NCBI GenBank assembly: GCA_019637955.1 | Contig: JAHBUS010000007.1 | Coordinates: 1 to 64,000, forward strand | DNA: 64,000 bases | DNA from: Pseudobdellovibrionaceae bacterium | GTDB lineage: Bacteria; Bdellovibrionota; Bdellovibrionia; Bdellovibrionales; Bdellovibrionaceae | Direction: 5' to 3' | In this document: positions 50,289-59,929 of the stretch, one piece after another | Position numbering within the stretch: the stretch's first letter is position 1 | Layout of the letters: every line of letters begins with the position of its first letter | Program-made: the position numbers and the translations under genes | The notes under the pieces: model-generated | What the model was told of the DNA's origin: nothing | The model's input: only the letters and a program-made list of their open reading frames with translations | Database searches by the model: none

Positions 50289-51272
50289 TCAGTCATAGTC
50301 CCCCGGCTTGCAGTCGGGGGCTGCCAACTTCCGCGCAAACTCGACCGTGTTTTTCATTCCCATCAGTTGAGGGAGATGTCGCGAAGGCTGGACACCAAAG
50401 GTGTTACTTCCTGTTTTGAGGTGGATCACCACTTTCGTCTGTGGATCGACGGTCAAAGATTCGGAGCTCGGGGCACGTGAGCTTGGTTTTTCTTTAACAT
50501 CGGCCAAGAACGCTTTCATCAGCTTTCGCTTGTTCGTCAGTTTTTCGCAAGCGCTCTTGGGAGCCTCGGTTCCAAACTCATCCAGGTCGTCTTTGAAAAC
50601 ATTCACGACAAAATCCCCGCGCTCCGGTCCAAACCAAACCGAGGTCTTTAGATCATCGAATCGAACCTTGACGGAACTGACTTCCGAGAGTGGTTTGCTG
50701 GATTGAAAGATCGGTCCATAGGTTTTGGGGCACTCGATCAGCTTCTCGCGTTCAAGCAAACGCAGCCACTCCCTCTGTGTTTTTTTGGTTGCCGATTGTA
50801 CCAATAAGAGCCGCTTGTTGTCCCACATGTGCACGATGACGGATTGGTCACCGTCCTGAATTTTCATGCCGCAGGTCTCGCTCACGACGGACTTGGTGAC
50901 GAGTTTTCGAATTTCATCAATGACCGTATTCTCAACAGAGTCGGTGCAGGTATCCCAGGCTTGAAGACCCGCGATGGGATGGCGGTAGACTCTTGTGGCA
51001 CCTCGATACCCCCGATCAATTCTGAAGAGGAGGTCGGTATCGCCGGAATCTTTTCTTTTGACCGTGATATTGAACAGATTGAGAGAGAGGGTTTGCTTAA
51101 GAGTGAGCGTTTCAGTTTTGACGTCCTTGCTGTGTTCCAGCGTCCTTTTTCCATCCGGCGCAGTCTTGTATGTCGGCGCAATGATATCGCAAGGCGGATC
51201 CTTTTTCGCGAATGCTGAATGCGAAGCGACCACTGAGATGAAAAGACTCAAGGAGAGTGTGCGCATCATCAT
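50289..51272 (-). CDS. exported protein, tandem paralogue A, unknown function
   Basis: A 327-residue protein with a signal peptide after three consecutive ATG codons (MMMRTLSLSLFISVVASHSAFA). The mature region is mixed alpha-beta with a few cysteines (DPPCDIIAP, DTCTDS, ETCGMKI, LIECPKTYGP). The motif WLRLLEREKLIECPKTYGPI matches FIRLLERE...SCSRPATGPL in the upstream gene, and both end with a GL/GM-K helix, so the two are diverged tandem duplicates. The first ATG overlaps the stop of the upstream copy (ATGA). Family not recognised. Confidence 0.75.
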   Translation of the reverse strand: MMMRTLSLSLFISVVASHSAFAKKDPPCDIIAPTYKTAPDGKRTLEHSKDVKTETLTLKQTLSLNLFNITVKRKDSGDTDLLFRIDRGYRGATRVYRHPIAGLQAWDTCTDSVENTVIDEIRKLVTKSVVSETCGMKIQDGDQSVIVHMWDNKRLLLVQSATKKTQREWLRLLEREKLIECPKTYGPIFQSSKPLSEVSSVKVRFDDLKTSVWFGPERGDFVVNVFKDDLDEFGTEAPKSACEKLTNKRKLMKAFLADVKEKPSSRAPSSESLTVDPQTKVVIHLKTGSNTFGVQPSRHLPQLMGMKNTVEFARKLAAPDCKPGDYD

Positions 51273-52294
51273 CTCTTTTCTGGGTAAATGGGTTTTTCCG
51301 GTGAGGGGTCCACCCAATCAAAACCCTTGGACTTTCGATTTTGAACAACTTTGAAAATTTCTTTGAGGCCGATGAGTCGAAGGCCCAAGCTGCTAGGCCC
51401 CTGATAGGCCAAGCCGCCAGGAGCAGATCCGCCAGAGAACAAGACGCGCACGGTGTCTTTTGTTGACGGTTGCGAGTTTGATTTCTCAAGCCTAGCTTCG
51501 GCGAGCTCCTTGCGAAGGATGGGGCCGAGACCTGGCTTGAAAGTCAATTCTTTCGCCGATCCGTCGACGGATGAAATATAGTCGAGGAAAATTCCTCCTT
51601 TGATGTCATCAGCAAACATCACCCGGATGCTGACCCGGTCGTTGAACAAGAAAAGAACGGAGTCAATTCGATCTAGATTTGCAAGATTGGAGAGTGGGCC
51701 TGTCGCTGGGCGGGAGCAAGACGAGGGAGACGACTCCCTCTCGAGGAGTCGAATGAAATCGCTCTGCGCATCTTTGGACATACCAAAATACTCGACCTGA
51801 TTGCTCGAGCTGAGAGAAATAGAGATCGAGAAAGGTTGCCATCCCTCTTTACTCAACGACGCGGGTTCGCGAAAATTTCGTCCGCAGCCTTCCTTCACGC
51901 GCGTTTTTGATAGAATGCTCATCAGCTCTTGGTAGAGCGTTCGGTCATTCTTGCGCTCGCACACGACGGCGTCGAAATGAAGATCCTCGGTTTGCGAGTA
52001 TCTGATCGTCGAGCTTCGATCTTTGTGATTGAGGCTCATCGAGAAGTGCTCGGAAAAGGTGCGTTCTTTTTCATAATTGGACTGTGTGCGCCGAGAAATC
52101 GAAACGTGTTCGACTTTTTCAAGTTCGTCTTTGTCGAAACTATTTTTTGAATAAGGCTTTGGCCGCGGATGATTTGTCGGGTCCGAGTAAGACCACGAGA
52201 CCGAGTAATCACAACCGGCTTCGGGTGGGTCATTCGCGGCGGCTGGAGCTGCACAGGACAAAACAATGGCAATGATCGCGCCTTTGCGAATCAT
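51269..52294 (-). CDS. exported protein, tandem paralogue B, unknown function
   Basis: A 341-residue protein with a signal peptide (MIRKGAIIAIVLSCAAPAAA). It shares the layout of the downstream gene: an early DPPEAGCDYSVSW block like DPPCDIIAP, a Cys pair in the middle, FIRLLERESSPSSCSRPATGPL, then LDRIDSVLFLFNDRVSIRVMF. A GGAGG site lies before the ATG at 52294, so the longer frame to 52369 is not used. Function unknown; coupled to paralogue A. Confidence 0.75.
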   Translation of the reverse strand: MIRKGAIIAIVLSCAAPAAANDPPEAGCDYSVSWSYSDPTNHPRPKPYSKNSFDKDELEKVEHVSISRRTQSNYEKERTFSEHFSMSLNHKDRSSTIRYSQTEDLHFDAVVCERKNDRTLYQELMSILSKTRVKEGCGRNFREPASLSKEGWQPFSISISLSSSNQVEYFGMSKDAQSDFIRLLERESSPSSCSRPATGPLSNLANLDRIDSVLFLFNDRVSIRVMFADDIKGGIFLDYISSVDGSAKELTFKPGLGPILRKELAEARLEKSNSQPSTKDTVRVLFSGGSAPGGLAYQGPSSLGLRLIGLKEIFKVVQNRKSKGFDWVDPSPEKPIYPEKR

Positions 52295-52414
52295 AATCCT
52301 CCCTGATGTCTCCTTTTCGGACGGGATCGGATGAACTTGAGACAAAAGTCCTGTTTCAAGATGAGACATCCTAAATCGGGAAAATCATTCGTGTTTTGCG
52401 GGGAGAGAGAAAAT

Positions 52415-52651: not shown

Positions 52652-53767
52652 ATGCCGATTTACCTCTCGCACTTTCGATGTCCGGAGCCTCCCCACTCGA
52701 AAGAGCAAGGCGAGAGCTTCCTTTGGCTGCAACGGGCCTATGCCCATTACCAAAAAACAAAGACCTCCACCGAGGCGGACTACGCCCGTTTATTGAAGCG
52801 AGTGGGCTGCTCACCCGGTCAAATCGGCCGGCGCCATTACTTCCTTGCGGACTTCAATGAGACCGATATCGCCGAGGGCGTGATTTTTAAGCGTGAGCGG
52901 ATCGAAGGCGCGCTCGCGCGGCAGAACTTTTTCCAGGGCGTTTCCAAAAAAATCTTTCGTGATCTTTATGACGGCGAGACGCTGCCCTCGCAGATCATCC
53001 ACGTTTCGTGCACGGGCTACGTATCACCTTCGGGAGCGCAGTTGGTCGCGGCCGAGAAGGCACCCGAGACCATCGTCACTCATGCTTACCACATGGGTTG
53101 CTACGGCGCCTTTCCGGCCCTGCGCATGGCCTCGGGGTTTCTGACCAATGAGGCTTTGCCATTGGTCAACCGCGAGAGTGTGGATGTTGTTCACACCGAG
53201 CTCTGCACTTTGCAATTGAGTCCCGAGGACCCAACGCTGGAGCAAATCGTCATCCAGACGCTTTTTGCGGACGGCGTTGCGGCCTATCGGCTAGAGAAAC
53301 ATAACATTTTGGGTTCAGCGCTGGAGCTCAATCAAATCGGCGAGTTTCTCATTCCGGATTCGGCGGGCGCCATGGAGTGGACTGTCGCCGATAGCGGGAT
53401 GCAGATGACGCTCTCGAAAGACGTTCCCACATTGGTCGGTCAGGCCTTGCGCGAAGCGCTCCTGCGTTGGGAAACGCAAAGCGGTCGAGCCCTCGTGCGT
53501 GAGCTCCCGCAGATGATCGTCGCGGTTCATCCCGGAGGGCCCAAGATCATCGACGCGGTTCAAAATCTCTTGGAGCTCAAAGATTCGCAGGTGCGCTACA
53601 GCCGAGACGTTCTCTTCGAGCGTGGCAACATGAGCTCGGCCACCGTGCCGCACATCTGGAAGAAGATTCTGGACGACGTCAATGTGACCGACGGCACTCA
53701 AGTGCTGTCGATGGCTTTTGGCCCTGGCCTCACGCTGTGTCTGAGTTTGATGACGGTGCGGCGATGA
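52652..53767 (+). CDS. type III polyketide synthase
   Basis: A 371-residue chalcone/stilbene-synthase-like enzyme. The catalytic triad is visible: Cys in YHMGCYGAFPALRMA near residue 152, His in VAVHPGGPKIID near 292, and Asn in ERGNMSSATV near 325. The C-terminal block SMAFGPGLTLCLSLM is typical. Bacterial members extend acyl-CoA starters with malonyl-CoA to alkylresorcinols, alkylpyrones or similar phenolic lipids. Starter and product cannot be read from sequence. A GTG at 52649 and the ATG at 52652 are both possible. The stop overlaps the next gene (ATGA). Confidence 0.93.
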   Translation: MPIYLSHFRCPEPPHSKEQGESFLWLQRAYAHYQKTKTSTEADYARLLKRVGCSPGQIGRRHYFLADFNETDIAEGVIFKRERIEGALARQNFFQGVSKKIFRDLYDGETLPSQIIHVSCTGYVSPSGAQLVAAEKAPETIVTHAYHMGCYGAFPALRMASGFLTNEALPLVNRESVDVVHTELCTLQLSPEDPTLEQIVIQTLFADGVAAYRLEKHNILGSALELNQIGEFLIPDSAGAMEWTVADSGMQMTLSKDVPTLVGQALREALLRWETQSGRALVRELPQMIVAVHPGGPKIIDAVQNLLELKDSQVRYSRDVLFERGNMSSATVPHIWKKILDDVNVTDGTQVLSMAFGPGLTLCLSLMTVRR

Positions 53768-54213
53768 CCTTTTTGTTTCTCATCTCCGCAGGCCTGCAAG
53801 CCGCTTTGATCTTGATCGATGAATTTTTCTTTCACTGGGCGCGCGGCCTGCCGCGATGGGAGCGACTGGGGCACCCCGTGGATACTTTGTCCTTGCTGGC
53901 GCCGCTGAGTTTGGCGGCATTTTCGACGCCGACCGAAATCACCCAGCGCCTTTTTATCGTCCTGGCCGTGCTGTCATGTCTTTGCGTGACGAAAGATGAG
54001 TGGGTGCACCGTGAGCGGGCGCCGGCCGCGGAGCAATGGGTTCATTCGATTCTTTTTATATTGCACCCTGTGGTTCTTCTCGGGGCTTACTTCGCTTGGA
54101 CCGTGGACCCCGTTTGGATTCGGATCGTGGTGATGCCGATGGGCGTGTTCCTTCTCTACCAAATTATTTTTTGGAACTTCTATGCAGACCGATTTTTCGC
54201 GAAAAGACCGTGA
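53764..54213 (+). CDS. four-helix membrane protein with conserved-looking His/Glu, in PKS cluster
   Basis: A 149-residue protein with four hydrophobic helices (near 3-22, 48-62, 66-84, 100-140). Between and beside them are polar His/Glu/Asp clusters: DEFFFHWARGLPRWERLGHPVDTL, KDEWVHRER and AEQWVHSILFILHP. Clustered His and Glu next to membrane helices recall di-metal membrane oxygenases or hydroxylases, although I cannot match it to one. Its start lies inside the PKS stop and its end overlaps the methyltransferase gene by 32 bp, so it surely belongs to the same pathway. Function unknown. Confidence 0.82.
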   Translation: MTFLFLISAGLQAALILIDEFFFHWARGLPRWERLGHPVDTLSLLAPLSLAAFSTPTEITQRLFIVLAVLSCLCVTKDEWVHRERAPAAEQWVHSILFILHPVVLLGAYFAWTVDPVWIRIVVMPMGVFLLYQIIFWNFYADRFFAKRP

Positions 54214-55000
54214 GCTGATCAACAACGACTATTACCACGACCTCTCGGATCGCTGGTACACGGCCGACGACGACCCGATTGCGCTCTTGCGTGCGGAGGC
54301 CCGGCTGCGCAACCCGTGGATCGCCGACAATATTCGCCGTCATGCGCGGGCCAGCGAAGACACCACCGTTCTGGATGTGGGGTGCGGGGCCGGTTTTCTC
54401 TCGAACCATCTGTCCGCGCAAGGTTTCCGCGTCACCGGCGTGGATCTCTCCGAGAACAGTCTCAAAGTGGCCCAGTTGCGCGATCAGACCGGCCGCGCGG
54501 AGTACATTTTGGCGGACGCGTATCAGCTCCCGTTTGCCGATGAAAGTTTTGACGTCGTGACCTCAACGGATTTTCTGGAGCATGTCTCGGAGCCTCGGCG
54601 TGTGCTGCGCGAAATTTCACGTTGTCTCAAACCGGGCGGTCTGTTTTTCTTTCACACCTTCAATAAAAACAAAATCTCCGAGCTTCTCGTGATTAAGAGT
54701 TTGGAGTGGTTCGTTAAAAACACTCCGGAGCATTTGCACATCGCGGATCTTTTTATCAAGCCTCAGGATCTCAAAGCCTGGATGGAGCTGGAAAACATGC
54801 ATTTGGTCGAAATCCGCGGCGTGCGGCCGGTCTTCTTGCAGAAACCGATCTGGCGGCTGCTCACCACCGGAACGGTGGATCCCAAATTTCGGTTCCGTTG
54901 GACGAAGTCGCTCGCGGTTTCGTACACGGGGTTCGCGCAAAAGATGGGCGACCCGGCTAAATCGCGGGTTCCGTCCCCGGAGTCGGCGGCGGCTGAATGA
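54182..55000 (+). CDS. class I SAM methyltransferase, UbiG-like
   Basis: A 272-residue methyltransferase. The start (NNDYYHDLSDRWYTADDDPIALLRAEARLRNPWI) resembles the UbiG family, which methylates hydroxyl groups of quinone precursors. The SAM-binding motif VLDVGCGAGFLSNHLSAQG lies near residues 62-80, then GVDLSENSLKVAQ and the DVVTSTDFLEHV motif near 125. It overlaps the membrane-protein gene by 32 bp and is third in the type III PKS cluster, so an O-methylation of the polyketide product is the likely role. Its last 44 bp overlap the convergent mscS-like gene. Confidence 0.87.
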   Translation: MQTDFSRKDRELINNDYYHDLSDRWYTADDDPIALLRAEARLRNPWIADNIRRHARASEDTTVLDVGCGAGFLSNHLSAQGFRVTGVDLSENSLKVAQLRDQTGRAEYILADAYQLPFADESFDVVTSTDFLEHVSEPRRVLREISRCLKPGGLFFFHTFNKNKISELLVIKSLEWFVKNTPEHLHIADLFIKPQDLKAWMELENMHLVEIRGVRPVFLQKPIWRLLTTGTVDPKFRFRWTKSLAVSYTGFAQKMGDPAKSRVPSPESAAAE

Positions 55001-56018
55001 TTTTGATGGTCGTGTGAGTCACCTGCAGGCCGTTGGCTTTGAGATACTCCAGACCGCGTGCCAGCACCTTGTGTCCCACGGTGTACTGCGCGCCATAATT
55101 GTCGATGTAGTACGAGAGTTTCAGTCCAAGCCAGGATTCGTTGTTTTCGGAGACCAAGCAAACGGGTTCGGGAAAGTTTCGAATTTCGGGAATCTCCCGC
55201 AGCGAGGCCAAGAGGCACTCTTGGGCCAGTTGAACATCGGTGCCGTAGGGGAGACGAAAAATCTGGCTGCGAATGATCGGAAGATCGCCGCTCTGGTAAT
55301 TGGAAATGTGGGAGTTGGCCATCGTGCGGTTGGGGATGACGATCACTTCATCGGCCCAGCCGATCAACGTGGTGGCGCGCCAAGTGATCTCTTTGACCTG
55401 ACCGACGGTCTTTTGCAGGCCTTGGACCACCTCGACCCAATCGCCAATTTCAAATGATTTGTCGAGCTGAAGGCTGATCCCGGCGAACAGATTTCCGAGA
55501 GTGTCCTGAAGCGCGAGACCGAGAATGATCGAGAAGGCGGCCGAGGTCGCGAGCAGCGGCGCCAGCTGGATGCCGAAGATTTGCGAGGCTCCCCAAAGCG
55601 CTAAGACCACCGACATGAGAAGCGAGAAGATGTTGACGATCAGAACCGGAACGCCGGCTTTCATGGATCCTAAGAACAGATACTGCAGAATGATCAGGCG
55701 GCAGACTTTGACGAAAACCGCGCCTCCCCAGCCAAAGGTGAGAATTCCCAAGTACGGCAGCGAGCGGCCGAGCGGACCCTGGCCTTCGGTGAAGTGCAAG
55801 ATCCCAGCGAACGTCATGAAAAAGACCGACATGATCAGGTAATGGCGGAACAGCCCGCGAAAGTGATTTTTTAAGTTCCGGTGGCGCTCGTCCGAGACTT
55901 CGCGAAGAAAAAGTTTGTAAAACACCCAGGCCAGCAAGAGCAGCGCGCTCAAGATGATGAATGGTTCAAGATCCAGCAGGGCGTAAAGACTTTGGGTTTG
56001 GATGAACTTTTCGTTCAT
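54957..56018 (-). CDS. MscS-family mechanosensitive channel
   Basis: A 353-residue membrane protein with four to five helices. The pore-lining helix is followed by the MscS beta domain: LATSAAFSIILGLALQDTLGNLFAGISLQLDKSFEIGDWVEV near residues 165-205, then ATTLIGWADEVIVIPNRTMANSHISNY. Such channels release solutes on hypo-osmotic shock. The extra N-terminal helices make it longer than E. coli MscS. The 3' end overlaps the methyltransferase gene, but the opposite strand suggests no shared role. Confidence 0.92.
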   Translation of the reverse strand: MNEKFIQTQSLYALLDLEPFIILSALLLLAWVFYKLFLREVSDERHRNLKNHFRGLFRHYLIMSVFFMTFAGILHFTEGQGPLGRSLPYLGILTFGWGGAVFVKVCRLIILQYLFLGSMKAGVPVLIVNIFSLLMSVVLALWGASQIFGIQLAPLLATSAAFSIILGLALQDTLGNLFAGISLQLDKSFEIGDWVEVVQGLQKTVGQVKEITWRATTLIGWADEVIVIPNRTMANSHISNYQSGDLPIIRSQIFRLPYGTDVQLAQECLLASLREIPEIRNFPEPVCLVSENNESWLGLKLSYYIDNYGAQYTVGHKVLARGLEYLKANGLQVTHTTIKIIQPPPTPGTEPAI

Positions 56019-58984: not shown

Positions 58985-59929
58985 ATGAAAACATGGATGT
59001 TGAAAAGCTCGCTCTGCTTGTTCTTGGTCCTCGCCGCTTGCGATAAAAAAGAACCGCAAGGGTCGGACAACAACAATAGCAATGGAAACAACGAGAATGG
59101 CAATTTGCCTCAAGCCGACTCCACCAAATGGGACACCGGAACCACCGTGCCTCCACAGGAGGCGGGCAAGGAAGGCGACTTCTTTATCCATACCGGAACC
59201 GGAGAGCTCTACCGTAAACTTCGTGATCAGTGGACCGTGGTGATGAACATGCGCGGGGCTGCCGGTGCGCCGGGGCCGGCTGGAGCCGCCGGACCTCAGG
59301 GTCCTCAGGGCGCGCCGGGGTTGAATGGTGCCGTCGGTGCGCAAGGTCCCGCAGGTCCCCAAGGTCTGGCCGGGGCGAACGGCGCCGCGGGACCTCAAGG
59401 CCCCAAGGGTGACACGGGAGCCGTGGGGGCGACGGGAGCTCAAGGCCCGGCCGGGCCTCAAGGTCTGGCCGGCGAGCATGGATTGGATGCGAATCGCATC
59501 ATCCTCGCTCATCGCTTCGGTCAAACCGCGACGATTTGGAAAGTTCCGAAGCGCGTGATCGCCGGTGGTCCCAGCACGTTGGAAGTTACTTACGGCACCG
59601 TGGGCAATGGCGCCGTGATCTTGGATCTGGGTCCGCGTGTGCGCTGTGCGTACCGCGGTGAAGGAGCCAGCGCGGATCCTCGTTACGGCACCTTCGACTA
59701 CGAACGTGGCCGCATCGCTTCGCTCGAAAAGTGCGTGGATCAAGGCGTGGTCTCACCCTCGGATATTTTAAACCGGACCGACCGTTACACCAAAGCCGCC
59801 GCGATCGACATGGCGCGCGGACTTGAATTGATTTCGCAAGATCAGGTGAGCTTTCAAATTCTTAAAGCGGGAACAACGGTTCCCGGCGCCAAGGTTCTCG
59901 CGCTGATTCCTTTGTACGTTTATCCTTAA
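58985..59929 (+). CDS. lipoprotein with collagen-like triple-helix repeats
   Basis: A 314-residue lipoprotein (lipobox LAAC, Cys at 19). A short Asn-rich linker and a small domain ([21 protein letters not shown]) precede about 27 uninterrupted Gly-X-Y triplets at roughly residues 90-170 ([19 protein letters not shown] and similar, with many Pro at X and Gln at Y). A globular C-terminal domain of about 140 residues follows. Bacterial collagen-like proteins trimerise and often project from the surface for adhesion. The 3' end overlaps the convergent methyltransferase gene by 4 bp. Confidence 0.9.

Follow-up and report, generated by a model that had tools for sequence, protein, structure and literature searches.

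A type III polyketide synthase operon of Bdellovibrionota and Chlamydiota with an apparently undescribed membrane protein, a probable source of a methylated alkyl-phenol or quinone lipid

The window analyzed here, a stretch of 64,000 nucleotides from a Pseudobdellovibrionaceae bacterium, contains three overlapping genes that encode a type III polyketide synthase (PKS), a small integral membrane protein (TM) and a UbiG-like methyltransferase (MT). The same three-gene order recurs in the Bdellovibrionota and the Chlamydiota, and the product of the operon is probably a methylated alkyl-phenol or quinone lipid. A more specific reading is favored tentatively, at somewhat less than an even chance: the operon would be a pathway of the polyketide-quinone type leading to a membrane-resident, O-methylated alkyl-hydroquinone or quinone lipid, with TM acting as a dimetal ring hydroxylase.

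Gene Organization

All three genes lie on the forward strand and overlap end to end, by exactly 4 bp between PKS and TM and by 32 bp between TM and MT. The coordinates and overlaps of the original prediction are borne out, and codon-position GC is coding-like in each of the three open reading frames (Table 1). The PKS start codon is an ATG, with a GTG one codon 5' of it. A consensus scan detected no promoter-like site 5' of the operon. A tRNA-Val is encoded 160 bp upstream, on the opposite strand.

Table 1. The operon and other features of the surrounding DNA.
Feature	Coordinates	Strand	Basis or description
Type III PKS	52652..53767	+	Chal_sti_synt_C (Pfam), E 2.6e-22; ArsC 3VS8/3VS9, E 1e-53; residue conservation
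TM, 149-aa five-helix membrane protein	53764..54213	+	Alignments; AlphaFold2; no family or PDB match
MT, UbiG-like SAM-dependent O-methyltransferase	54182..55000	+	TIGR01983 (UbiG), 134.6 bits; solved relatives UbiG
MscS-type mechanosensitive channel	54957-56018	-	Overlaps MT tail to tail by 44 bp
Two adjoining, apparently secreted proteins	50289-52369	-	342 and 366 aa; no Pfam match; possibly paralogues
Putative lipoprotein	58985-59929	+	Collagen-like Gly-X-Y stretch

The Polyketide Synthase and the Methyltransferase

The closest solved structure to the PKS is that of ArsC, which together with ArsB comes from Azotobacter vinelandii. The triad C151, H294 and N327 (numbering from 52649) aligns with ArsC and is conserved in all relatives readable at each site (Cys 112/112, His 113/113, Asn 113/113), so that the intact Cys-His-Asn triad described earlier is confirmed. 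The tryptophan found at ArsB position 281 corresponds to W244 and is present in 113 of 113 PKSs; the position aligns with that of 3VS9, the ArsC G284W mutant. Tryptophan at this position belongs to ArsB, the resorcinol synthase (PMC6274091), and is predictive of resorcinol-type (aldol) cyclization (PMC6274091, PMC9927152). The PKS is predicted to be an alkylresorcinol synthase, for which the tryptophan is supportive only, being non-discriminating: the phylum's FAD-linked and ICMT-linked PKSs have it as well.

The MT exceeds the cut-off (102.95 bits) of the curated NCBIfam UbiG equivalog, its best solved relatives are UbiG structures (4KDC, 4KDR, 5DPM), and the alignment with UbiG runs on through the segment after the SAM domain. 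Its assignment to the quinone-O-methylation type is thereby upheld; the difference from UbiG lies in its setting beside a type III PKS. UbiG enzymes methylate ortho-dihydroxy rings, and resorcinol is a meta-dihydroxy compound. An alkylpyrone is a less likely product than a resorcinol or quinone, given the invariance of the ArsB-type tryptophan and the ortho-dihydroxy substrates of UbiG-type enzymes. A role of the MT as a genuine ubiquinone UbiG is disfavored, since no ubiquinone-type hydroxylase (UbiH/UbiF/UbiI-type) above cut-off was found in its own genome, where one weak match reached 39.8 bits; the rejection is not complete. The futalosine menaquinone marker was also absent from this genome.

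The Membrane Protein

The AlphaFold2 model of TM has five confident helices (mean pLDDT 95.2) instead of the four originally assigned. No significant match was obtained in Pfam or NCBIfam and no solved relative was found in the PDB by sequence, while fold searches of the PDB and BFVD returned nothing at E < 0.7 and no diiron enzyme. COQ7, alternative oxidase (AOX) and ferritin-like diiron proteins match TM neither in sequence nor in fold, and TM was not found in viral contigs. The protein was first described as unrecognised, and it indeed falls into no well-known family, whether Pfam, NCBIfam or ICMT-like; as far as these comparisons go, its family appears undescribed in the family and structure libraries searched.

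A small membrane protein encoded beside a type III PKS is reminiscent of BpsA-BpsB of Bacillus, and the operon could be viewed as a plain alkylpyrone methyl ether pathway of that kind, with TM as an ICMT-type membrane methyltransferase. BpsB-type ICMTs are small and membrane-bound, and their genes adjoin those of type III PKSs, in this phylum too (L136-L138). However, TM is not an ICMT: none of 20 members matches PF04140, a profile comparison with the local ICMTs (hhalign) gives a probability of 0.1%, and the operon already includes a separate UbiG-like MT. Such a pathway is very improbable.

Nineteen positions of TM are invariant in 114 sequences: Q12, D19, E20, H24, R27, E33, H37, D40, S71, K77, D78, E79, H82, E90, H94, L97, F98, H101 and Q133. 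Five histidines and seven Asp/Glu residues are thus identical in 114/114. As the scan demanded a match to either of two short peptide patterns, which span parts of 31-38 or 75-82, invariance within these two segments is partly due to selection, and E20, H24, D40, E90, H94 and H101 are unaffected. Most of the invariant polar residues lie near the C-terminus of helix 1 or helix 3 or in the N-terminal half of helix 2 or helix 4, and in the predicted model the invariant histidines and carboxylates cluster around the H1-H2 and H3-H4 turns, on one side of the membrane. This side is probably cytoplasmic, because the Lys/Arg-rich segments of TM are the loop between H1 and H2 and the C-terminus. The candidate ligands E20, E33-xxx-H37, E79 and E90-xxx-H94 sit on helices 1-4 according to sequence and model, and within each helix the putative Glu/His ligands share a common face. 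The conserved residues resemble a carboxylate-rich metal site, a pattern that suggests a putative dimetal site. The motif looks repeated between the two hairpins, and an internal two-fold repeat was considered; hhalign gives it no support.

Divergent solo relatives of TM were identified in five loci (L114-L118, in genomes G109, G066, G193, G171 and G189) with no PKS nearby. They keep D19, E20, E33, D40, S71, E79, E90 and H94 and mostly lose H24, H37 or H82.

Distribution and Co-occurrence of the Three Genes

Scanning 84,980 prokaryote genomes with a TM profile yielded 180 related stretches, and 80 loci were fetched and examined. A PKS gene lies directly upstream of TM on the same strand in 78 of them, the remaining two starting at contig ends. 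The MT gene is found downstream of TM in 71/80; the loci devoid of it are Bdellovibrio-genus loci, loci at contig ends, and L052 and L062. A search for the same gene order across genomes had been proposed at the outset, and the order proves to be present in several phyla rather than restricted to this genome. In addition to Bdellovibrionota and Chlamydiota, it probably occurs in Acidobacteriota, Fibrobacterota and Myxococcota. Phyla in record titles are unreliable: metagenome-assembled genomes titled Acidobacteria or Verrucomicrobia (L057, L061, L081, L083, L091) share the GTDB phylum of the chlamydiae.

Among 197 relatives in the Bdellovibrionota, the main TM family comprises 37 genomes at E <= 1e-35 plus G194, where the gene is partial; PKS and MT accompany TM in all 38. 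The MT gene is located elsewhere in the chromosome in about 20 genomes of g7, a Bdellovibrio-type genus. The Chlamydiota set consisted of 234 genomes of the phylum that holds Candidatus Sacchlamyda. TM was detected in 69 of these, and the PKS of the operon's clade (clade A, E <= 1e-30 plus the fragment in G291) in 66, every one of which has TM; genomes with another type III PKS have TM in 0 of 30 cases. In the three TM genomes without PKS, TM lies at the end of a contig or close to it (G384, G360) or is a fragment match only (G375). The trees of PKS, TM and MT agree in their distances, with correlations of 0.78-0.84, whereas permutations reached 0.19 at most. A second PKS-TM copy in one genome (L154, G060:C12:2729-3916) is apparently decaying, with an internal stop and a TM fragment, next to an intact pair elsewhere in the same genome.

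In two lineages (L049, L056), TM and MT are joined in one open frame. Such fusions would fit tethering, and TM might have no catalytic role and serve as an anchor or chaperone recruiting the soluble PKS and MT to the membrane, or as a transporter of the lipid; TM is small and membrane-bound, and PKS and MT themselves match no membrane family. Yet anchors rarely hold about 19 invariant polar or aromatic residues over 114 sequences and several phyla. Moreover, TM is retained without an adjacent MT in Bdellovibrio (PKS-TM), and linkage is broken in G007, with TM unlinked, and in G118, with TM-MT apart from PKS. A purely structural or transport function is therefore considered rather improbable.

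The neighbors outside PKS-TM-MT show no overall conservation. In 11 of 20 Bdellovibrio-genus loci (L123, L141 and nine more), the gene just 5' of PKS-TM encodes a type II NADH:quinone dehydrogenase-like (NDH-2-like) protein with an NDH2_C domain, and suggests a possible link of the operon to quinone redox. Other loci of this genus have an AmpG-like MFS gene upstream of PKS, in the place of the NDH-2-like gene. Around the chlamydial operons (L091, for example), a TSUP/TauE-like permease gene is found upstream in 20 loci and a thiol-peroxidase-like gene downstream in 18.

The NDH-2-like neighbor, present in half of the Bdellovibrio-genus loci, and the five invariant histidines would also agree with TM as a heme-binding or quinone-reactive electron-transfer subunit, which oxidizes a hydroquinone or passes electrons and is not a hydroxylase. 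Against this stand the seven invariant carboxylates near one membrane face that form part of the ligand-like set, the frequent loss of H24, H37 and H82 in the divergent relatives, and the lack of any cytochrome-b-like family match for TM. An electron-transfer role is improbable, a little more so than that of an anchor.

Comparison with Other Type III PKS Clusters

In the published srs, hid and pkq operons, a PKS is combined with a methyltransferase and a flavin oxidoreductase or hydroxylase (PMC8086630, PMC9927152, PMC10896814), and their members lead to alkylresorcinols and alkylquinones (PMC9927152, PMC10896814, PMC8086630). Like the present operon, srsABC of Streptomyces griseus, pkqABC of mycobacteria and Streptomyces, and hidABC of cyanobacteria and planctomycetes have three genes, with a type III alkylresorcinol synthase (a predicted one in the present operon) and a SAM methyltransferase. 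The comparison with srs-type clusters that the original prediction recommended shows that PKS and SAM methyltransferase are common to both. In contrast to them, the PKS-TM-MT operon is devoid of an FAD-dependent oxidoreductase or hydroxylase and has the unrelated five-helix TM instead, and its methyltransferase is UbiG-like. The set is accordingly a variant, and not a member, of the srs/hid/pkq type, because the flavin oxidoreductase, one defining feature, is missing.

The Azotobacter PKSs ArsB and ArsC are the closest solved ones and share the ArsB-type tryptophan at the cyclization position with the operon's PKS. The ars operon of Azotobacter vinelandii carries its own fatty acid synthase, and to our knowledge it has no TM-like gene.

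Other type III PKS clades of the same phylum form clusters without TM. PKS-MT-FAD oxidoreductase clusters were found in L133 and L134, and FAD oxidoreductase-PKS-ICMT clusters in L136 and L138. In L129, on a short contig (G105:C247), a TM-less PKS near the operon's clade is immediately followed by a gene for a P450-flavodoxin fusion protein, which seems to stand in for TM as a non-homologous substitute. Given the flavin oxidoreductase of srs/hid/pkq and the FAD or P450 genes in these TM-less clusters, TM sits in the oxidase slot, and the earlier proposal that a short membrane protein takes the place of the oxidase is supported. An oxidase is not obligatory, since the type III PKSs of L127 and L128 stand alone without any.

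TM could instead be another metal-dependent or acid-base enzyme, such as a hydrolase, decarboxylase, cyclase or reductase, acting on a membrane-bound polyketide; the product would then be a methylated alkylresorcinol with an unhydroxylated ring. The invariant Asp/Glu/His/Ser/Arg/Lys set is enzyme-like and by itself silent on redox, the divergent orphans mostly lose H24, H37 and H82 yet keep the carboxylates, and the specificity of the E. coli-type UbiG need not apply to the MT. The phylum's other type III PKS clusters argue against it by filling the corresponding slot with an FAD oxidoreductase or a P450, and TM has no hydrolase-type motif match in Pfam. This alternative is unlikely, but deserves more weight than the structural and electron-transfer roles.

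Proposed Pathway

In the pathway tentatively favored, the PKS would condense a long acyl starter with malonyl-CoA and cyclize the chain to a 5-alkylresorcinol. TM would then hydroxylate the ring with O2 through a carboxylate/histidine dimetal site, most likely diiron, at the cytoplasmic face, giving an ortho-dihydroxy ring. The UbiG-like MT would O-methylate the new catechol, and oxidation would lead to a methoxy-quinone. Hydroxylation is expected to precede methylation because UbiG-type enzymes need an ortho-dihydroxy ring, which resorcinol does not offer, and TM is proposed as the hydroxylase since it is the sole candidate encoded in the operon.

Judging from its residues, TM is a candidate membrane hydroxylase of the alkylresorcinol ring, probably a diiron one; a ring hydroxylase that has neither flavin nor P450 domains, and has a Glu/His-rich site in a membrane helix bundle, would most simply be a diiron enzyme. 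A likeness in function to COQ7 and alternative oxidase can be put forward as a hypothesis from the four helices of TM with their Glu and ExxxH pairs; COQ7, too, adds a hydroxyl group to the ring of a lipid quinone, alongside UbiG. TM differs from them in being integral to the membrane, in having the site at the ends of helix hairpins, in the ExxxH instead of ExxH spacing, and in its additional histidines. Two features count against the diiron reading, namely that four Glu and five His amount to more histidines than in classical diiron sites, and that the motif of TM is of the type ExxxH/ExxH and not E..ExxH. Heme-copper oxidase is encoded in 35 of 40 sampled TM genomes and bd oxidase in four of the other five; terminal O2 reductases in 39/40, with neither type detected in G214, are consistent with the use of O2 by TM.

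A broader proposal is that TM founds a new family of ring hydroxylases, integral to the membrane and with a dinuclear iron site, that have no sequence relationship to COQ7, AOX, fatty-acid hydroxylases or flavin monooxygenases and would complete a polyketide-quinone pathway to an alternative respiratory quinone in Bdellovibrio and environmental chlamydiae. In this full form the proposal is doubtful.

Biological Meaning

Chlamydial type III PKS clusters have been reported as "T3PKS BGC", with their chemistry unassigned (PMC9666466, PMC13229535). In the literature searched, no link of such a PKS to a UbiG-like enzyme was found for the Bdellovibrio or chlamydial groups. About two thirds of the chlamydial type III PKS clusters found here resolve into one fixed set of three proteins, which is common to predatory Bdellovibrio. 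If TM is a hydroxylase, it would represent an undescribed family of membrane enzymes. In actinobacteria, polyketide quinones provide an alternative means of carrying electrons (PMC9927152). If the product of the operon is a quinone, intracellular and predatory bacteria would possess an extra respiratory carrier of a kind so far known from actinobacteria.
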